Made by a program: the position numbers and the translations under genes | Notes under the pieces: model-generated | The model's input: the letters and a program-made list of their open reading frames with translations, nothing else | The model's database searches: none | What the model was told of the DNA's origin: nothing | In this document: in pieces, positions 4,513 through 63,459 of the stretch | Numbering within the stretch: position 1 is the first letter of the stretch | Layout: each line of letters starts with the position of its first letter | Source: Halothermothrix sp. | Lineage (GTDB): Bacteria; Bacillota; Halanaerobiia; DY22613 | Direction: 5' to 3' | Assembly (NCBI GenBank): GCA_016841825.1 | Contig: JAENYK010000011.1 | Coordinates: 62,001 to 126,000, forward strand | Length of the DNA: 64,000 nt

Positions 4513-5877
4513 ATGGTGAGTGAGTTTGATCCAAAAAAAGTTCATTTAATTGAACGGGATGATTTACATATTCTCTTTTGTAAAGATACATTAGAATTTT
4601 ACAATATTGATTGTGAAGATGCTGATATGGCTAGACCTTTCATCATTGAAAATTCAAAGTACGTAGATGAAGATGACATACAGACATTGAAGAATCAGAA
4701 TATTTTAAACATTCTCCAATTCAATATCTCAGAAGATTGTAATCTTAACTGTGCCTATTGTGCAGCCGAAGGTGGTACATATGGCAGAAAAGCAGGGAAA
4801 ATATCTCCCGAAACAGCTTTAAAAGGACTGGAGATTATTCTATCTCACTATAAAGGAATCAATAATATTCAATTTTTCGGAGGTGAACCTCTACTCAATC
4901 TAAAGGCAATCAAAGCTATCGTCGAGTATCTACATCAATATAAAGAAGATCATCCGGACTTCTCGATGCCTAAATTTAACATTAACACCAATGGTACTAT
5001 ATTAAACGATGAAATCATAGCTTTCTTAAAAAAATATCCATCTGTGATGATAGTTATCAGTCTGGATGGTCCGGAGATAATTCACAACCGTTTTCGTAAA
5101 AACAGATCTGGTAAAGGAACCTTTCAACAGATTGTTAACAATATCAATCTCCTATACCAGGAAACTGGTCAGCCTGTTGGTATTGAGATGGTTTATGGAA
5201 CCCACTTTTTAGAGGCTGGTGTAAGCTTACGCTCAGCTTTAGAACATTTAGAAAGTTTATTACCTCCCAACAAACATACAATATTCGCAGCCCCACTGGT
5301 GGTAAATGATATTTCACCTACAGAAGTTAAAAAATATCATGGTTATCATCCTGATCTAATTCCGGATTATATAGAGATGATCCAATTGGGTTTTGCTGAG
5401 TTCAGACAGGGTAAAACACCTATATTCAGTTCTAAAGTTACCAGTACCGTCAAAACTCTGCTCAACAAAAAAACTTCCAAACACTTTTGTATCCCCAGTA
5501 AAACTAAATTAATGATTGATGCCCAGGGTAATTTTGTACCATGTAATGCTTTTGTCAATCGCCCAGACTATCATATTGGTCATATCTCAGACCCAGAAAG
5601 TTTCAAAAATAATATTGGTAAATTTGAAGATATTTTTCTTGCCAAACGAAAGACCACATACTATAAAGAATGTGCCCACTGTTGGGCATTCCATCTATGC
5701 ACTTTCTGTATGTCACATATCTTTAAAGGTGAAAAACCTGAAATGGATGAAATTGACCCCAATCTCTGTGAAACTCATCAGGCTATAACCGAAGAGATAG
5801 TACTCCAACTTGGCAGCCTGGCAAAAGATCCTGAACTATGGCAAAGATTCAAAAGCTATATACAATCATCAGCCTAA
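4513..5877 (+). CDS. Radical SAM/SPASM peptide-maturase-like enzyme (rSAM1)
   Basis: A 454-residue enzyme. After an N-terminal domain of about 75 residues resembling those of RiPP maturases, the radical SAM cluster motif CNLNCAYC appears, followed by FFGGEPLLN and INTNGT. The C-terminus has a SPASM auxiliary-cluster pattern: a Cys, 12 residues, Gly, 4 residues, Cys (GNFVPCN), then CAHCWAFHLCTFC and a final CETH. This class catalyses radical modification of peptides (thioether, C-C crosslinks, decarboxylation). The start ATG 4513 is 5 bases after AAGGAGG; the in-frame GTG 4507 overlaps that site. It is followed 320 bases later, on the same strand, by five tiny peptide genes. Confidence 0.9.
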   Translation: MVSEFDPKKVHLIERDDLHILFCKDTLEFYNIDCEDADMARPFIIENSKYVDEDDIQTLKNQNILNILQFNISEDCNLNCAYCAAEGGTYGRKAGKISPETALKGLEIILSHYKGINNIQFFGGEPLLNLKAIKAIVEYLHQYKEDHPDFSMPKFNINTNGTILNDEIIAFLKKYPSVMIVISLDGPEIIHNRFRKNRSGKGTFQQIVNNINLLYQETGQPVGIEMVYGTHFLEAGVSLRSALEHLESLLPPNKHTIFAAPLVVNDISPTEVKKYHGYHPDLIPDYIEMIQLGFAEFRQGKTPIFSSKVTSTVKTLLNKKTSKHFCIPSKTKLMIDAQGNFVPCNAFVNRPDYHIGHISDPESFKNNIGKFEDIFLAKRKTTYYKECAHCWAFHLCTFCMSHIFKGEKPEMDEIDPNLCETHQAITEEIVLQLGSLAKDPELWQRFKSYIQSSA

Positions 5878-6197
5878 CATTAGTCTTATACGTTTACCAA
5901 TTTTTAATCAAGAGTCATGACCAGGAGATGGAATCGCCCATCTCCTTCTATTTCTAAATTGAATAGTCGAATATTATAAACATAAATCAGAATCCATCCA
6001 AAAAACTAAAAGATATTCTCTTCACTGTTTTGTGTCAAATGATTCTATATAGGTAAATTTTTTTCAATTAAGCAGGATTTTCTTTTTATTTCTAGAATAC
6101 TAATAAATAGAAAACCATATTTTTACCATTGTTTCTAATGATTGAATTAACATCGGCTTTTTTTAAACTAACTATCAAATTTTAGGAGGTGATTGTC
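5878..6197 (+). other. Intergenic leader between rSAM1 and the peptide cluster
   Basis: A hairpin at 5923-5946 (AGGAGATGG with CCATCTCCT, followed by TCTATTT) probably terminates or attenuates the rSAM1 transcript. A weak promoter-like pair TTGAAT 6142-6147 and TAAACT 6164-6169 (16-base spacer) lies just upstream of the first peptide gene, so the peptides may have their own transcript. No ORF with a ribosome site is seen in the interval. Confidence 0.4.
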
Positions 6198-6332
6198 ATG
6201 TTAACTATCAAAAGTAATGTATTAATCAATGATGAAATTATCAGTCCAATAAAACCACCTTTATCTGGGTATGTTGCTTTACCTATCGAACCACTCCCAG
6301 GTATTTACCCTGAAATACCAATTTTGAAATAA
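6198..6332 (+). CDS. Putative RiPP precursor peptide 1 (44 aa)
   Basis: ATG 6198 follows AGGAGGTGATTGTC. The peptide starts MLTIK, carries LINDEIISPIKPP, and ends in a Pro-rich tail with PLSGY and PLPGIY followed by PEIPILK. The first half is nearly identical to peptide 2 (22 of 25 residues). A conserved leader, a low-complexity core with recurring Pro-Leu-x-Gly-(x)-Tyr, no Cys and a strong ribosome site next to a radical SAM/SPASM gene are what a RiPP precursor looks like. No experimental family match is known to me. Confidence 0.7.
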   Translation: MLTIKSNVLINDEIISPIKPPLSGYVALPIEPLPGIYPEIPILK

Positions 6333-6405
6333 TCAGATTGGTAAACAAAACCAGGCAAATTTTACTCAGATCGACTTGATCAATAACATCAGGGAGGTGA
6401 AATAC

Positions 6406-6543
6406 ATGTTGACCATCAAAAATATAGTTTTGATCAATGATGAAATTATCAGTCCAATAAAACCACCTTTAGCTGGATATCCTGCTACTTCATATCCACC
6501 ACTAGCAGGAAAATATCCAACCAATCCAATTCCTATGGACTAA
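6406..6543 (+). CDS. Putative RiPP precursor peptide 2 (45 aa)
   Basis: ATG 6406 follows GGGAGGTGAAATAC. It repeats the leader of peptide 1 (MLTIK, then LINDEIISPIKPP) and its core holds PLAGY and PLAGKY, then PTNPIPMD. The tail differs from peptide 1 while the spacing of the two motifs is kept. This looks like a recent tandem duplication with core diversification. Confidence 0.7.
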   Translation: MLTIKNIVLINDEIISPIKPPLAGYPATSYPPLAGKYPTNPIPMD

Positions 6544-6606
6544 CATTCAAAGAAAAGTTCTCTTCTTACAAGAAAATAATTTTACTCAAAAAAGGAGGCG
6601 AATAGC

Positions 6607-6747
6607 ATGATTACTATCAAAAACACAAATTTGATTAATGACTCATTCATTGAAGGACCAATTAGACCATTACCAGGTTACTGGGAACCAATTCCATTTA
6701 ATTTTGATTCCAACGATGATGGTGCTTTAGCAGGCATGTACAAATAA
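6607..6747 (+). CDS. Putative RiPP precursor peptide 3 (46 aa)
   Basis: ATG 6607 follows AAAGGAGGCGAATAGC. The leader is MITIKNTNLIND, followed by PIRPLPGYWEPIP and an acidic spacer DSNDDG before a second motif-like ALAGMYK end. It shares the MxTIKN...LIN leader with peptides 1, 2 and 5 but is less similar in its second half. Confidence 0.68.
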   Translation: MITIKNTNLINDSFIEGPIRPLPGYWEPIPFNFDSNDDGALAGMYK

Positions 6748-6788
6748 GAATCTATGCTTTTCAACCAACCAAAAAAGGAGGAGATGAC

Positions 6789-6890
6789 ATGTTAAAATTC
6801 AACAATCCACAAATGATTAACGTTGAAATCAAAGAACTTCCACCTTTTGTTACTCCAGGATTAATCAACGAGCCTTATCCATATTATTAA
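6789..6890 (+). CDS. Putative RiPP precursor-like peptide 4 (33 aa, divergent)
   Basis: ATG 6789 follows AAAGGAGGAGATGAC. It is the shortest of the set: MLKFNNPQMIN, then ELPPFVTPGLINEPYPYY. It keeps the basic start, the xxIN element and the Pro-rich Tyr-ending tail but lacks the PLxGY unit. An upstream ATG at 6784 meets a stop after three codons. It could be a second type of substrate or a decayed copy. Confidence 0.6.
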   Translation: MLKFNNPQMINVEIKELPPFVTPGLINEPYPYY

Positions 6891-6948
6891 TTAATATCTA
6901 AAAGATAGTAATCACATCGACTTTATTTGATTGAAGGAGGTGATCTGA

Positions 6949-7089
6949 ATGATTACTATTAAAAACAAAACTCTGATTAATACTGATTATATTATTGAGC
7001 CAATTAATCCATTACCAGGTTATATTGAACCTATCAAACCATTACCTGGGTACATGGAGCCAATTATACCAATCGAACCAATTCTGTAA
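6949..7089 (+). CDS. Putative RiPP precursor peptide 5 (46 aa)
   Basis: ATG 6949 follows AAGGAGGTGATCTGA. The leader is MITIKNKTLIN and the core is the most regular of the set: two exact PLPGY units (PINPLPGYIEPIK and PLPGYMEPI) followed by PIEPIL. The repeat period is 10 residues. It is the last peptide before a strong hairpin at 7106-7135. Confidence 0.7.
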   Translation: MITIKNKTLINTDYIIEPINPLPGYIEPIKPLPGYMEPIIPIEPIL

Positions 7090-7105
7090 TACTACAGAGC
7101 ATAGT

Positions 7106-7135
7106 AAAGGGCTGTCCCCCAAAAGACAGCCCTTT
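7106..7135 (+). terminator. Terminator after the peptide cluster, possibly bidirectional
   Basis: AAAGGGCTGT pairs perfectly with ACAGCCCTTT around a 10-base loop. It stands between the last peptide gene (+) and the 3' end of the creatininase-family gene (-), so it may serve both. The T-tract is short on the plus strand. Confidence 0.7.
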
Positions 7136-7174
7136 AAATAAAGATATTTTTCCGATAATAGTAAATCTCCCCAC

Positions 7175-7894
7175 TTACACTATAATTTCATCTTTCCAAA
7201 TCTGCTCCAGAATCTCCATAATTCTATCTGCCACTGATTCCAGAATTTTCTCACCTTTCTCCTTGCTTCCCTTAGTAGCCTCTCCCGATAGACCATATTG
7301 ATAACTTAGAAGTCCAATATTCTTCCGTTTAATATTGGCGATTAATTGCCTATTGTTCTCTTTAGCCAGACTCATATCACAATATTCTTCCGCCACAGCC
7401 AGAGCTGCTGAGGTTTCATCTTCACCAGCATGACCTTGACCTTCGCATATCTGCAGAATTTCATTTTTAAAGTCTATCCACCAATTAAAAGTAATTACCT
7501 GAACATCCAGATCTGCAATTCGCTCACCTGCAGTAGTAAGAGCAGGTATATTTCCACCATGCCCATTTAACAGGACAATATTTTTAAACCCTGCTTTGAC
7601 AAAAGCCTGACCTATCTCACAAACGTATTGCATCAAAACTTCTGTAGAGATATTTATTGAACCCGGATAAGCAGCTAAAGTCCAAACATGTCCATAATTA
7701 ACAGTTGGGGCAATTAATACTTTTTCACCCATCTTTGTCTCAATCTTTTCCACTAACCCCTCTGGAATCAGAACATCAGTTCCTAACGGAAGATGTTCCC
7801 CGTGAGCTTCAATAGTACCAATCGGAATAATCACTGTGTCAATCTTTTTCTGAATCTCTTTGAATTTGGCCTGATTAAGATTCATCATTTTCAT
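7175..7894 (-). CDS. Creatininase-family metal-dependent amidohydrolase
   Basis: A 239-residue member of the creatininase family. The metal ligands are visible: E29, H31, H34 and D40 in GTIEAHGEHLPLGTD, then H112 in NGHGGN and E160 in GEDETSAAL. Family members cleave amide bonds: creatinine amidohydrolase, the ArfB deformylase, and MftE, which clips the mycofactocin precursor peptide after radical SAM modification. The gene converges on the peptide cluster and ends 85 bases from it. A role as the protease of that pathway is inference. ATG 7894 follows AAGGGGAAG. Confidence 0.85.
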   Translation of the reverse strand: MKMMNLNQAKFKEIQKKIDTVIIPIGTIEAHGEHLPLGTDVLIPEGLVEKIETKMGEKVLIAPTVNYGHVWTLAAYPGSINISTEVLMQYVCEIGQAFVKAGFKNIVLLNGHGGNIPALTTAGERIADLDVQVITFNWWIDFKNEILQICEGQGHAGEDETSAALAVAEEYCDMSLAKENNRQLIANIKRKNIGLLSYQYGLSGEATKGSKEKGEKILESVADRIMEILEQIWKDEIIV

Positions 7895-8051
7895 AATAAT
7901 CTTCCCCTTTCTATGTAGATATTCTTAATGACCCAATACTTCTATTAATAAAATTCGCCTTTCCCCCGAATTTCCCTTTTTGCAGGAAATATCATCCCTG
8001 AAGTCGAACTATGTTAGAAGTGATTAGACTTTGTCAAAGGGGGTTTACAAA

Positions 8052-10193
8052 TTGACACGCGAAGAATTAATCTTTGCTCTTGATATAGGAACCAGAACCG
8101 TCGTAGGTCTTGTACTGGAACCTACCCCAGAAGGGTTACAAATTATCGCTTCAGACGTCATCGAACACGAAAACAGAGCCATGCTAGATGGGCAAATTCA
8201 TAACGTGATCGAAGTTGCCCGGGCTGTCCAGACCATCAAAGATAGATTGGAAGAAAAAGTTGGTCAACCACTAACCAAAGTGGCTGTTGCAGCTGCAGGA
8301 CGAGCCTTACAGACCGCACAACAATCCCATTACATGGAATTTTCCACTAAACATGAAATTACGACCGAAGATGTTAATACATTAGAACTAGCCGCTGTTC
8401 AGGAAGCGCAAAAAATTTTGGCTCAGGATGATAAACACAAACCTGGTGATTATCACTTTGTTGGCTATAGCGTTATCGCTTACCGTCTGGATGATATGCA
8501 TATTGGTCATCTGGTTGGACAAAAAGGTAAACGAATTGAAGTAGACATTATTGCTACTTTTTTACCTGGAATAGTCGTTGATTCTCTGATCACCGTTATT
8601 CAACATGCTGACTTAACTGTTCAACACATGACTTTAGAACCTATCGCCGCTGCTAACGTAGTTATTCCCAAAGAGATGCATAACTTTAATTTAGCTCTGG
8701 TAGATATTGGTGCAGGGACGTCTGATATCGCTATTACCAGAGGGGGAGCCATTATCGCCTATGCAATGGTTCCCATCGCCGGAGATGAGATTACTGAAGC
8801 ATTAGCCGAGAACTATCTGCTGGACTATGCTTCCAGTGAGAAGTTAAAACGCTCTCTAACTACTCAGGAGAAGATTCAAATTAACGATATTCTTGGCATG
8901 ACTCTTGAAATTGATGCCCGTGAAGCGATCACGGCATTACAGAAACCAGTAGAAGATCTGGCTACATTGATTGCAGATCAGATACTTGCTCTCAATCAAA
9001 AATCACCACAAGCCGTATTATGTATTGGCGGAGGAAGTCTTACACCTCTTCTAACTCAAAAATTAGCTGCTAAACTTGAATTACCTCCTAACAGAGTGGG
9101 AGTAAAACAGGCTACTGAAATTAAAGGGATCATTGGTGAGGTCACTGGTCTAACTAGCACTCAAACCATAACCCCTATCGGTATTGCCATGACCAGTTGG
9201 GAGAACGCTAATCGAACAACCTTTATAGAGATTAGATTAAATGCCCAGAGAACTACGATCTTCTCTCTGGGCACACCAACGGTTGCCGATGCTTTATTGG
9301 CAACTGATGCTCCTGTAGCCAAACTTCACGGCCGTCCCGGAATGGCTCTAACCTGCAAAGTTAATGGTCAACTTAAGGTTATCAAAGGGACGATGGGGCA
9401 ACCTGGTAGATTGGAACTTAACGGTCAACCAGCCCAGCTAGATACACCAATCTCTGAGGGTGATGAACTCTGCTATCAACCAGGGCAAGATGGCCAATCC
9501 GGGATTGGAGTGATCAAAGATGTAGTCACCTATGCCGAACCTAAAACCATTATCCTAAACGCTACTGAAGTCCAAGTTCAGACTCAAGTATTTATGAATG
9601 ATCAATTAGTCAAACCAGATACACCACTTATCGACGGTGCAGAGATTAAGACTTCCAATGTCGAGACATATCGCGAAACCTTGATGCAAATACTAGAAGT
9701 TCCAGCGAATGACCTCATTTCCCGGGAAATATTAATTTCCCTGAATAACCGACAAAAATCACTGTACCTGGGAAATTATCATATTAAGATAAATGGAGAA
9801 AACCTCGATTTAGATCTGCCAGTAGAAGAAGGTGCAGAAATCGAAGTCGAAACAGTTGAAAATCATGAATTAACCATCAAAGATCTGGCTGAACGTTTTT
9901 CCACATGCTTTGAGATCAATATCATCTTTAACGATCGAGAACTATCTATCCCTACAAACTACTGGGAAATAAGCCGAAATGGTCAAGCTGTCACTATTGA
10001 TACAATAGTCAAAAATGGGGATCAGATTATCTGTCAAGCTAAACCGATTACTTTTAACCGAGTTTTAAATTTTATTAATTATCAAATCCCTGAATCCATG
10101 TCAGAGCGTCTAGTAATGACTATTAATGATCAAAACGCCAGTTTCACCGATACAGTAAAAAATGGAGATGTATTAGAAATTAAACTAGTATAA
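8052..10193 (+). CDS. FtsA-like actin-fold ATPase with a long beta-rich C-terminus
   Basis: TTG 8052 lies 8 bases after AAAGGGGG (8036-8043), so it is preferred over the upstream frame start. The 713-residue product opens with an actin/hsp70-fold domain: LIFALDIGTRTVVGLV (phosphate 1), LALVDIGAGTSDIAITRGG (phosphate 2) and LCIGGGSLTP. This is the FtsA/PilM branch, but FtsA is normally about 400-450 residues. About 300 further residues have recurring units ending in EGDEL, EGAEIEV, KNGDQI and KNGDVLEI, suggesting tandem small beta domains. It appears monocistronic. A scaffold role in envelope or division machinery is inferred. Confidence 0.75.
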   Translation: MTREELIFALDIGTRTVVGLVLEPTPEGLQIIASDVIEHENRAMLDGQIHNVIEVARAVQTIKDRLEEKVGQPLTKVAVAAAGRALQTAQQSHYMEFSTKHEITTEDVNTLELAAVQEAQKILAQDDKHKPGDYHFVGYSVIAYRLDDMHIGHLVGQKGKRIEVDIIATFLPGIVVDSLITVIQHADLTVQHMTLEPIAAANVVIPKEMHNFNLALVDIGAGTSDIAITRGGAIIAYAMVPIAGDEITEALAENYLLDYASSEKLKRSLTTQEKIQINDILGMTLEIDAREAITALQKPVEDLATLIADQILALNQKSPQAVLCIGGGSLTPLLTQKLAAKLELPPNRVGVKQATEIKGIIGEVTGLTSTQTITPIGIAMTSWENANRTTFIEIRLNAQRTTIFSLGTPTVADALLATDAPVAKLHGRPGMALTCKVNGQLKVIKGTMGQPGRLELNGQPAQLDTPISEGDELCYQPGQDGQSGIGVIKDVVTYAEPKTIILNATEVQVQTQVFMNDQLVKPDTPLIDGAEIKTSNVETYRETLMQILEVPANDLISREILISLNNRQKSLYLGNYHIKINGENLDLDLPVEEGAEIEVETVENHELTIKDLAERFSTCFEINIIFNDRELSIPTNYWEISRNGQAVTIDTIVKNGDQIICQAKPITFNRVLNFINYQIPESMSERLVMTINDQNASFTDTVKNGDVLEIKLV

Positions 10194-27558: not shown

Positions 27559-27581
27559 TATACAATCACACCCCAGATTTT

Positions 27582-27723
27582 AAAGTCGCATTAACAGCAG
27601 ACTGTTAATGACTTATGTTTAACGACTTCAAAAAGAATTTGTACCTCCACTGAAGTAAATACATTTAGTTATGATACTCTCACCTATAAAGTCCGGGAGA
27701 CTCCCTTCCAAAATGTCGTTAAA
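27582..27723 (+). repeat. Dispersed structured repeat, copy B
   Basis: Starts TTAAAGTCGCATTAACAGC and ends AATGTCGTTAAA. It carries all elements of the family: hairpin 1 (GCATTAACAGCA...TGTTAATG), left arm TTTAACGACTTCA, inner CCACTGAAGTAAA, hairpin 3 (CTCTCACC...GGGAGACT) and the right end. The TTCAGAAGG part of the left arm is mutated, so the outer stem is partly broken. Confidence 0.78.
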
Positions 27724-27804: not shown

Positions 27805-27910
27805 AAGGATTAATACAGCTTTGCTCTGAATTAAATTCCATTTGCTTAGCAGCACTTTGTTCCTGATTAGCCTTAGAAATATTAACCAATTTTATATATT
27901 TCACGACCAC
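27803..27910 (-). CDS. Candidate small peptide overlapping the 3' end of rSAM2 (35 aa)
   Basis: GTG 27910 lies five bases after AAGGAG and overlaps the last codons of rSAM2 in another frame. The peptide has a basic, hydrophobic start (VVKYIKLVNI), a polar middle (KANQEQSAAKQ) and ends SEQSCINP with one Cys. The stop lies at the foot of the rSAM2 terminator, so the ORF fills the transcript exactly. It could be the substrate of rSAM2. The AAGGAG also encodes Arg residues of rSAM2, so chance cannot be excluded. Confidence 0.38.
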   Translation of the reverse strand: MVVKYIKLVNISKANQEQSAAKQMEFNSEQSCINP

Positions 27911-29306
27911 TTTTTCTCCTTTCGGGGACGAAACTTAACAAATCTTCCTCCTGTAAAGAAGAACAATACACTTCGACCCCAAGATCTAAGACATGTTGAT
28001 TGACTTCACAACGTGGTTCATATGGAGTAGTTAAAGAGTGATGAACCAAGAAATTCTCCCCAACACAACCACCTCCACAAAAATACCTGGCCCAACAGCT
28101 TTTACAACTATCGCGATTGAGAACATGTAAGGGTTGATAAAATTTTTTGCGAGCTGTTTGATCCAGGAACTCATCAGCAATGTTACCCAGATAAAAATCT
28201 GGATATCCAACTAATAGATGACATGGATAGATATCACCTATTGGAGTGATACAAAGATAGTATTTACCGGCCCCACAAGTGTAACAGAGATTCTTTTGGG
28301 TAGCAATACTGTTAACTGCTGAACTAAGATTAAGCACCTTATGACAAAAACTGTCTTCATCCTGAAAAGACTCAAACATCCAGGCATAATTGTCTTTAAT
28401 AATTTGAATATCTTCAACAGTTAAAGCAATTTCTGAGTCTTCAGAAGCAATTACAGGTTGTAATTGAACCAAAGGGAACTCCGCTTTTTCATACATCTCA
28501 AAAATTGCACCAATCGCTTGTACATTATAATGATGTATCGTTCCCTTAATACGATATCTAATTCCACTCTCTTTTACCCATTGTAAACGATCATAAATCC
28601 GATCATATGACGGACGTCGATTCTTCATCACTCTCATATAATTATGTTCCTGGGGACGTCCATCCAGGGTTATAATCAACTCAACATCATAATATTTTAA
28701 CTGATCCAAAATCTTTTTCTCAATAAGCGTTCCATTAGTAGTTATAGTAATAAAAACATTTTTCTCATCTTTTTCTTGATATTCTCTTACAATCTGCACA
28801 ATCTCAACCACCAGGTCAGGATTAAGCAAAGGTTCCCCACCAGATATATTTAAATAAATCGTGTTATCAGGACTCTCACTGAATAAAAATTCTATAGACT
28901 TTATGGCAACGTCTTTTGACATATATTCTGCATCGTGATCAGTTTTATTTTTACTTTGATAACAATAATTGCACTGCATATTACAATCGTCACAAATATT
29001 TAGTGTTAGACTATTGATCTTCTGCTCTTTTAACTTATAAGGTTTAATCTCAGAAGAATAGATAGTCAGGTAGCGGTTATCAATTAGATAATTCAACTCT
29101 CCAGACATATCCATCCAATCCAAAAAGTTATGTTCTCTTTTTACCTTATCCAGGTATTCGGTTGAAGTATTTTTAACAGATTGAACTAAAATCTTCTTTA
29201 TCCAGGGATGAATTTCAAATAAACTAGATGAAGGTATATCTAATACATAATGCCGTCCATTAACGTTAAAAAATTTTAAATCTGTATCAATCAAAGGAAG
29301 ATCCAT
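27882..29306 (-). CDS. Radical SAM/SPASM enzyme (rSAM2)
   Basis: A 474-residue peptide-maturase-like radical SAM protein. An N-terminal domain (FFNVNGRHYVLDIPSSS) resembles those of SCIFF-type maturases. The 4Fe-4S motif CDDCNMQCNYCYQ and SGGEPLLN follow. The C-terminal SPASM ligands are CGAG, GDIYPCH and CKSCWARYFCGGGCVG. ATG 29306 follows GGTGGAG. It shares the overall design of rSAM1 (4513-5877) but is a separate lineage. No peptide gene is found upstream; one candidate overlaps its 3' end. Copies of the 140 bp repeat flank the gene on both sides. Confidence 0.88.
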   Translation of the reverse strand: MDLPLIDTDLKFFNVNGRHYVLDIPSSSLFEIHPWIKKILVQSVKNTSTEYLDKVKREHNFLDWMDMSGELNYLIDNRYLTIYSSEIKPYKLKEQKINSLTLNICDDCNMQCNYCYQSKNKTDHDAEYMSKDVAIKSIEFLFSESPDNTIYLNISGGEPLLNPDLVVEIVQIVREYQEKDEKNVFITITTNGTLIEKKILDQLKYYDVELIITLDGRPQEHNYMRVMKNRRPSYDRIYDRLQWVKESGIRYRIKGTIHHYNVQAIGAIFEMYEKAEFPLVQLQPVIASEDSEIALTVEDIQIIKDNYAWMFESFQDEDSFCHKVLNLSSAVNSIATQKNLCYTCGAGKYYLCITPIGDIYPCHLLVGYPDFYLGNIADEFLDQTARKKFYQPLHVLNRDSCKSCWARYFCGGGCVGENFLVHHSLTTPYEPRCEVNQHVLDLGVEVYCSSLQEEDLLSFVPERRKSGREIYKIG

Positions 29307-29333
29307 TTCGCTCCACCTGCCATTTTTAGATTA

Positions 29334-29477
29334 AACTGGCATTAACAGCAAGCTGGTAATGCCTGGGTATAACGACTTCGTAAGGAGATTTATACTCCAC
29401 TAAGTAAACCCATTTAACTATTTATTCTCTCACCTGTAGATGCCAGAAAGCTTTCCCCCCCTAAAAGATCATTTAGC
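29334..29477 (+). repeat. Dispersed structured repeat, copy C (degenerate)
   Basis: Same orientation as the others: GGCATTAACAGCAAGCTGGTAATGCC (hairpin 1, intact) then TATAACGACTTCGTAAGGAGATTTATACTCC and a decayed right end (GATCATTTAG). It stands directly upstream of the rSAM2 start. Confidence 0.65.
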
Positions 29478-61875: not shown

Positions 61876-63459
61876 TTATTTTACAAAGTAAATATCTTTC
61901 CAGTCATGGATGTAACCGATTGGACTAGGAATCAGGCCACGAATATTTTCGTTGTAAACTGCATTACCTTTGGAGTACATTAAGAAGATTGATGGATAGT
62001 CGTCATGAATAAGCTCTTGAATTTTATAATAAATAGGTTGACGTACTTCAAGATCCATAGTAGTTCTACCTTGTACTAACAGCTCATCAACTTCTGGGTT
62101 AATGTAAGTTCCAAAGTTGTAACCATCTTCGATCTGACTGGAGTGGAACAGAGAATAGTCGTCTGGATCTGGACCCATACCGGTCCAACCAAGAACAATT
62201 GCGTCAAATTTCTTGGCCATTACTCTTTCAGTGATGAAAGTAGTCCAGGTCAGAGCATCAATCTGGCAGTCTACGCCAATCTTCTTCCAGAAAGTAGCAA
62301 GAAGTTCGATAGTTTTCTCACGAGCAGTGTTACCTTTATTAGTAATCAAATTAAAGCTCAAAGGTTGACCATCTTTATCTCTGATACCATCACCATTAGT
62401 GTCTTTCCAACCAGCTTCGTCTAACAATCTGTTAGCTTCATTTACGTTATACTCATAAGCAGGGATATTCTCATTGTAAGCCCACTGAATACCAGGAACA
62501 ACGTTGGAAGTAGCTGGCATACCTTGACCATAATAAGCAACTTTAACGATAGCAGGCTTGTAGATAGCCATAGCCAGAGCTTTTCTTACCTGAACATCTT
62601 TAAAAATGTCTAAAGCTAAGTTAAAACCAACATAAGAATAACCGAAATCCCAACGGCTGTACATTTTTAAGCCTTTGCTAGCAGCAGTTTTGGAAACACG
62701 CTCTACTTCAGCAGGTGGTACAGATGCAGAATCCAGGTCACCAGCTTCAGCAGCTGCTAAGAGAGAGTTCTGGTCAGCAACAATTTTGTAGATAACTTTG
62801 TCCAGATGTACGCGACCACGATGATAATCTTCTCTTGCAGTAAATGTTGCATGATCATCGTGTAACCACTCAGTTAAAACAAATGGGCCAGTACCAACTG
62901 GCTGCTGGTTAACTGGGTTAGTGTTGATATCAGTACCTGCATACAGATGAGCTGGCAAAATCTCCATAGTCATAGTACCAGTTAAGAAATCAGGGAATGG
63001 GTACTTAAGAGTAAACTGGATAGTATAATCGTCAATAATTTTAATACCTTCTACTGGGTCCATCAAATAACCACGAACAGTGTTAGTGTTAGGATCTTGA
63101 ATAGCTTCGAAAGTATATTTCACGTCTTCAGCAGTGAATTCATGACCATCACTGAAATTAACACCTTTCTTTAAGTAGAAAGTCCAAACCAGGTTATCTT
63201 CACTACCCTCGTACTTCTCACACAGTGGTCCAGGAATAGGTTTTACAGTAACTGGATCCAAAGTTAATACGCCTTCATATACCATTTCAGCATAAGTAGC
63301 AGCAGAATCAGTAGTACCCAGAATAGGGTTAATCAGTTCAGCATCACCAATCTCACCAAATACTAGAGTGCCTCCCTCCTGAATCTCTTCAGCTAAAACG
63401 CCAAAACTAAAGCCTAAGACCATCATAACAACAAAAAGAATAACAACATTCTTCTTCAT
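61876..63459 (-). CDS. oppA: Oligopeptide ABC transporter substrate-binding protein
   Basis: A 527-residue family 5 solute-binding protein. The signal peptide (about 1-24, ending VLAEE) carries no lipobox Cys, so the protein is likely soluble, which would fit a periplasm in a diderm cell. The SBP_bac_5 core (EGVLTLDPVTVKPIPGPL, GVNFSDGHEFTAEDVKYTFE, NQQPVGTGPFVL) is intact. It is the first and probably most expressed gene of the operon. Confidence 0.94.
   Translation of the reverse strand: MKKNVVILFVVMMVLGFSFGVLAEEIQEGGTLVFGEIGDAELINPILGTTDSAATYAEMVYEGVLTLDPVTVKPIPGPLCEKYEGSEDNLVWTFYLKKGVNFSDGHEFTAEDVKYTFEAIQDPNTNTVRGYLMDPVEGIKIIDDYTIQFTLKYPFPDFLTGTMTMEILPAHLYAGTDINTNPVNQQPVGTGPFVLTEWLHDDHATFTAREDYHRGRVHLDKVIYKIVADQNSLLAAAEAGDLDSASVPPAEVERVSKTAASKGLKMYSRWDFGYSYVGFNLALDIFKDVQVRKALAMAIYKPAIVKVAYYGQGMPATSNVVPGIQWAYNENIPAYEYNVNEANRLLDEAGWKDTNGDGIRDKDGQPLSFNLITNKGNTAREKTIELLATFWKKIGVDCQIDALTWTTFITERVMAKKFDAIVLGWTGMGPDPDDYSLFHSSQIEDGYNFGTYINPEVDELLVQGRTTMDLEVRQPIYYKIQELIHDDYPSIFLMYSKGNAVYNENIRGLIPSPIGYIHDWKDIYFVK

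Follow-up and report, generated by a model that had tools for sequence, protein, structure and literature searches.

A candidate multi-substrate peptide pathway with one radical SAM/SPASM enzyme and five cysteine-free precursors in Halothermothrix sp.

A stretch of 64,000 nucleotides from Halothermothrix sp. (the window; positions 62,001 to 126,000 of contig JAENYK010000011.1, G000:C24:62001-126000 of the 5.08 Mb genome) carries a gene for a radical S-adenosylmethionine (SAM) enzyme with a SPASM domain, rSAM1, and beside it five tandem genes for very short peptides. We regard these six genes as a strong candidate for a multi-substrate pathway, so far undescribed, for ribosomally synthesized and post-translationally modified peptides (RiPPs), in which an enzyme from the neighbourhood of thioether maturases works without thiols. 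An earlier note on this DNA had proposed a multi-core, multi-substrate RiPP system, and the genes that it described (rSAM1, five open reading frames and a hydrolase) are all present. The RiPP reading is supported because the reading frames are real, because they combine a common leader with variable repeat cores, because the SPASM maturase next to them is complete (although of no named family), and because kin of this enzyme also stand beside short precursors. Overall, we consider a RiPP pathway of one SPASM maturase and five precursors, with chemistry that does not depend on Cys, to be probable.

Five short peptides and their repeated cores

The five peptide genes follow rSAM1 on the same (forward) strand, with 320 nucleotides between rSAM1 and the first of them. 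They are P1 (MLTIKSNVLINDEIISPIKPPLSGYVALPIEPLPGIYPEIPILK, 6198..6332, 44 residues), P2 (MLTIKNIVLINDEIISPIKPPLAGYPATSYPPLAGKYPTNPIPMD, 6406..6543, 45 residues), P3 (MITIKNTNLINDSFIEGPIRPLPGYWEPIPFNFDSNDDGALAGMYK, 6607..6747, 46 residues), the divergent P4 (MLKFNNPQMINVEIKELPPFVTPGLINEPYPYY, 6789..6890, 33 residues) and P5 (MITIKNKTLINTDYIIEPINPLPGYIEPIKPLPGYMEPIIPIEPIL, 6949..7089, 46 residues). All five start with ATG and have a GGAGG at normal spacing before it, as the earlier note had claimed for strong ribosome-binding sites. Such an arrangement is not expected by chance: among 3000 dinucleotide shuffles of positions 5878-7139 none contained three such reading frames (mean 0.012).

Four of the peptides begin with the common leader M-[IL]-T-I-K-N-x-x-L-I-N. 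The cores of these four, P1, P2, P3 and P5, are repetitive. P-L-[PSA]-G occurs seven times in the cores, compared to 0.07 times in shuffled cores (0/5000 shuffles reach this number), and L-x-G-(x)-Y occurs eight times, compared to 0.14 expected (0/5000). There are two L-x-G-(x)-Y units in each of the four peptides, and in all eight the Tyr stands one or two positions after the Gly. In P5 the two units are near-exact copies of PLPGY(I/M)EPI. P4 is different: it starts with MLKFNNPQMIN, which has little likeness to the leader, and it contains no L-x-G-(x)-Y unit. The shared leader and the PLxG(x)Y cores that had been ascribed to all five reading frames of 33-46 codons are hence properties of four.

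None of the five peptides contains a Cys. Their C termini are ILK, PMD, MYK, PYY and PIL. As a set, the reading frames show what generally characterizes RiPP precursors, namely short genes side by side with a conserved leader and a variable core. No peptide family in Pfam or NCBIfam matches them, and open-access papers yielded no description of such PLxG(x)Y repeats (most subscription journals lie outside this coverage).

With a profile of the five peptides, only the five copies themselves are recovered in their own genome (E < 1e-12), and relatives and about 400 genomes of the phylum contain no convincing match. One match in genome G380 (E 0.005) and those at E values above 0.02 are probably due to chance. 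Peptides that are conserved at a distance from radical SAM genes, which had been named as grounds for giving up the proposal, thus did not turn up.

The maturase and its kin

The gene for rSAM1 (4513..5877, forward strand) encodes 454 residues from an ATG at 4513 to a stop at 5877, with AAGGAGGTG 5' of the ATG. The protein matches the Pfam model Radical_SAM with 79 bits. Its CxxxCxxC motif spans residues 76-83, and seven SPASM Cys follow at residues 326, 344, 387, 390, 396, 399 and 419. In an alignment of eight related enzymes the three radical SAM Cys and the seven SPASM Cys are invariant, and no further Cys is. The description of rSAM1 as a SPASM maturase with all expected Cys ligands is therefore correct, and rSAM1 has both features generally expected of SPASM enzymes in RiPP pathways (CxxxCxxC and auxiliary-cluster Cys). 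Residue 137 is Val in rSAM1 and Cys in the other seven aligned enzymes.

rSAM1 reaches none of the NCBIfam cut-offs. The best models are PapB (161 bits, cut-off 340), CcpM (160, cut-off 500), Nif11 (153, cut-off 519) and SCIFF (137, cut-off 425). The models for triceptides and three-residue cyclophanes are further away (YhhB 73.6 of 445 bits, XyeB 60.5 of 450, GrrM 55.5 of 310). The products of that class have a C-C bond between an aromatic residue and residue i+2; in our peptide set a Tyr is present in each L-x-G-(x)-Y unit. The nearest solved structure, both by sequence (E 4e-28) and by fold, is 5WGG/5WHY, which we take to be CteB. rSAM1 groups with the thioether-type SPASM enzymes (the neighbourhood of PapB, CteB, CcpM and QhpD) and keeps their seven-Cys SPASM domain. 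These ranthipeptide maturases are its best neighbours in NCBIfam, in the PDB and by fold, and share its three radical SAM and seven SPASM Cys. However, about 160 bits is far from the cut-offs of PapB and CcpM, and the thioether that defines the class is impossible on Cys-free precursors.

At the N terminus of rSAM1 a strand pattern, VHLIERDDLHILF...LEFYNI, is common to the kin enzymes, which makes a shortened leader-binding domain (similar to a RiPP recognition element) possible. A scan of genome contigs returned nothing with rSAM1 as the query and one generic radical SAM match with query A2. Viral contigs searched with query A4 gave distant SPASM proteins only, which served as alignment rows for the fold.

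We searched for homologues of rSAM1 in 60 relatives (E < 1e-60) and 398 genomes of the phylum (E < 1e-55). Only one genome, G001, has a homologue (35% identity). About 390 genomes from one class and one order of the wider phylum gave six more enzymes (in G226, G746, G722, G840, G949 and G1049). In a maximum-likelihood tree rSAM1 and the G001 enzyme pair with support of 100/99, and are joined with G1049, G226, G746, G840 and G949 at 88/91. A first tree, from which G840, G949 and G1049 were absent, had a clade of six rows at 95/95, with G722 and C40b included.

Most informative are the genes beside these enzymes. In G226, G746 and the more distant G722 the enzyme adjoins short precursors with Cys. 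In G840 and G949 it lies directly 3' of tandem Cys-free, Pro-rich precursors (three and two, respectively). One of the G840 cores contains PPLSG, which is also present in P1, and PP[LI] occurs five times in the G840 and G949 cores, compared to 0.6 expected (2/5000). These clusters differ from ours in their double-glycine leaders, which are unlike the leader of the five peptides, and in lacking a Tyr repeat. G840 also encodes a peptidase-exporter protein of the ATP-binding cassette type (729 bits, above the cut-off of 524) and a second SPASM-type radical SAM gene. G840 and G949 branch next to G746 in the tree, so Cys-free cores may have come into use at least twice in this enzyme group, which has few members.

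In G001 the surroundings of the homologue (L060 9247-17625) include a 567-residue radical SAM protein with a PDZ-like part and a 39-residue Cys-free peptide with the motif LINDE, as well as two TldD/TldE-like reading frames and an MFS-like transporter, all three judged by eye. The 39-residue peptide, MKKLYLSEAELRNLINDEEKVTVQRKFSGAPFIGTITTD, was tried as a relative of the five. It has LINDE in common with them, and 4 of 2000 shuffles do as well against the window profile. The likeness is only suggestive, because the peptide adjoins another radical SAM gene.

Predicted chemistry and competing explanations

Thioether formation is what SPASM enzymes near PapB and CteB are known for, and Cys is the usual mark by which their precursors are recognised. 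With no Cys in the five peptides there is no core donor for a thioether as in ranthipeptides, and such a product is excluded. In CteB, auxiliary cluster I, which lies closest to the active site, has a free coordination position that a Cys of the peptide substrate takes in the crystal (PMC6231123), and PapB links Cys to Asp or Glu (PMC9413430). Because our peptides have no Cys, neither CteB-like cluster ligation nor PapB-like linkage can take place here. Although its group is best known for Cys bridges, rSAM1 thus probably does other chemistry. A precedent for a repetitive Cys-free core that one SPASM enzyme modifies many times is TvgA/TvgB, which yields poly-cyclopropylglycine (PMC9062424). 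The precedent differs in its TVGG repeat, its single precursor and its five-gene cluster with a dioxygenase and an exporter.

The genes, the repetition of the motif, the lack of Cys, the clade of rSAM1 and the exclusion of the hydrolase discussed below are shown directly; from leader binding and enzyme-substrate pairing to chemistry and processing, we infer the following course. The motif M-[IL]-T-I-K-N-x-x-L-I-N would be the leader, which the N-terminal domain of rSAM1 probably binds in beta-strand form, and modification of the peptides by rSAM1 is predicted to depend on it. The 5'-deoxyadenosyl radical from rSAM1 would abstract a hydrogen within the P-L-[PSA]-G-(x)-Y unit, and the auxiliary clusters would accept the electron. 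Each unit would yield one product with a loss of 2 Da, a cross-link that involves the conserved Tyr. Leader removal and export would be performed by enzymes encoded elsewhere.

The part of Tyr in this scheme is argued from its place after the Gly in every unit. Taken alone, a Tyr-centred cross-link is a tentative proposal, and an intra-residue or backbone change at Leu, Pro or Gly is nearly as likely. If the enzyme group shares one reaction, then the G840 and G949 cores argue for Leu, Pro or Gly, because they have no Tyr at PP[LI] and PLSG. It is conceivable, though we would not yet favour it, that rSAM1 and the enzymes of G001, G840 and G949 form a PapB/CteB-like group that acts on Cys-free Pro-rich cores and carries out an undescribed non-thioether modification of P-L-x-G, with the auxiliary-cluster site put to a non-thiol use. 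In three genomes kin of PapB and CteB adjoin Cys-free, Pro-rich precursors, which suggests that mining by Cys overlooks some of the PapB/CteB-like group. The system comprises one enzyme and five natural substrates, of which four carry two repeats each, and is small enough for asking what thiol-free chemistry such an enzyme performs.

Several observations weigh against the proposed pathway. The SPASM match of rSAM1 (21.3 bits) is marginally below the Pfam cut-off of 21.5. The AlphaFold model is confident only in the core, and residues 1-61, where the putative leader-binding domain would lie, have a predicted local distance difference test score (pLDDT) below 50. A terminator-like hairpin (AGGAGATGG-AATCGC-CCATCTCCT, then T-rich; 5923..5946, forward strand) lies 3' of rSAM1, within the 320-nucleotide gap before P1. 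It comes from a consensus scan only, which found five such sites where 2.5 are expected, and suggests that the peptides may be their own transcription unit or be expressed at a different level. No transporter or protease gene is found near rSAM1 and the peptides. The five peptides are unique to one genome in our sample, so that the co-occurrence with rSAM1 across several genomes for which the earlier note had recommended a search is not shown; the pairing is argued from adjacency, from leader and core anatomy, and from the behaviour of kin. Beside the G001 homologue there are no such peptides, and a transposase-like reading frame lies just downstream. Finally, the cores of G840 and G949 do not conserve the Tyr.

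Some of these points would be expected if the peptides were real but had a structural role or were secreted (for instance as signals or in association with spores), remained unmodified by rSAM1, and the target of rSAM1 were encoded elsewhere. The hairpin between rSAM1 and P1, the restriction of the peptides to one genome and the many other SPASM enzymes of this genome all fit. Yet a common N-terminal leader followed by variable repeated cores is the logic of a precursor, near-kin enzymes adjoin their own short precursors, and no other candidate substrate lies near rSAM1, so we regard this explanation as unlikely. Somewhat less likely still is a RiPP pathway in which rSAM1 is an epimerase or a splicease, inverting residues or excising tyramine instead of cross-linking. 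Repeat-bearing Cys-free substrates would suit chemistry at the alpha carbon, and each L-x-G-(x)-Y unit does offer a Tyr. However, splicing in spliceotides requires the motif Xaa-Tyr-Gly (PMC11002830), and Tyr-Gly is present in none of the five peptides. The eight related enzymes have no invariant Cys beyond the cluster ligands that could serve as hydrogen donor, and rSAM1 is closest to the PapB and CteB types.

A third explanation concerns the hydrolase downstream of P5 (7175-7894, reverse strand), which the earlier note had counted as part of the gene set. Its assignment to the creatininase family holds (PF02633, 194 bits), its membership in the set does not. In a mycofactocin-like pathway this hydrolase would cleave the modified peptides, and the proximity of a SPASM enzyme to a creatininase-family protein does recall MftA, MftC and MftE. 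MftA-type precursors end in Val-Tyr, an ending found in none of the five peptides, which are otherwise unlike MftA as well. MftE, a creatininase homologue, cleaves a modified RiPP precursor (PMC10885120) and is also the best NCBIfam match of the hydrolase, but the score of 126.7 bits is below the cut-off of 172.

Synteny decides the matter. G001, the sole other member of the family sampled, has an orthologue with 79% identity, and window positions 7184-10178 align with G001 L078 9509-12483 at 71% DNA identity. This block comprises the creatininase and an FtsA-like gene and is devoid of radical SAM and peptide genes; 393 kb separate it from the homologue of rSAM1 in G001. Because the hydrolase gene is convergent on the peptides, falls below the MftE cut-off and keeps its FtsA-like neighbour in G001 without radical SAM or peptide genes, it is outside the gene set. 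From this conserved order we read it as a long-standing companion of the FtsA-like gene, and on the synteny we reject it as the protease of the pathway. A mycofactocin-like route is accordingly very improbable. The neighbour itself (8031-10193, forward strand) encodes an FtsA-like ATPase of 720 residues whose C-terminal part is ThiS-like. An inverted repeat (AAGGGCTGTC...GACAGCCCTT, approximate limits 7107..7133) separates P5 from the convergent hydrolase gene; it was read from the sequence, was not flagged by the terminator scan, and is likely a shared terminator.

Further peptide sets and SPASM enzymes in the genome

A second set in the same genome is comparable to the pathway proposed for rSAM1. 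On contig C43 (L053 6678-10713; G000:C43, about 183677-187712) four tandem Cys-free, Pro/Ile-rich peptides of 33-36 residues with a shared leader (MLNFNDLNPTIAAVEISEEPIIAPIISYPGIDY and three alike) precede a SPASM-type enzyme. This enzyme belongs to a different clade from rSAM1 (its nearest models are PqqE, AlbA and AhbD). The cluster has two further genes, for a 315-residue protein without CxxxCxxC and a 311-residue radical SAM protein, and its peptides have no PLxG(x)Y repeat. P4 resembles the C43 peptides: against their profile it scores 10.0 bits, above all of 2000 shuffles of itself. In the opposite direction, the C43 peptides score at about 0.5-1% against the window profile, and a comparison of the two profiles gives no support (probability 1.2%, E 0.045). 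As a lead only, P4 may link the two sets or be a shared substrate.

Loci L042-L058 of this genome hold about 20 or more SPASM and radical SAM genes, many adjoining short precursors. Several tandem multi-precursor sets exist, one of which (L051 9264-9894) consists of five Cys peptides. A gene for a Cys-rich precursor-like peptide of 61 residues is located some 4 kb ahead of the window (L059 9065-9250, G000:C24:57564-57749), and the part of the contig read here shows no radical SAM gene next to it. This peptide is similar to the precursor in a cluster with a 712-residue radical SAM protein (L046 5227-5406).

The window itself encodes a second SPASM enzyme (27882-29306, reverse strand), which is similar to SCIFF maturases (261 bits, cut-off 425) and has no recognisable precursor nearby. 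It could be an orphan maturase able to act in trans. Close to this gene are two copies of a noncoding dispersed element of about 130 nucleotides (about 27580-27690 and 29326-29475, both on the reverse strand). The element has 42 matches across the genome, mostly 71-84% alike, and several copies lie 24-70 nucleotides upstream of unrelated start codons. It conserves a GCATTAACAGC...GCTGTTAATGC hairpin, also has a second set of helices in which a few changes are two-sided, and has no match in Rfam. We regard it as a candidate structured repeat or unrecognised RNA.

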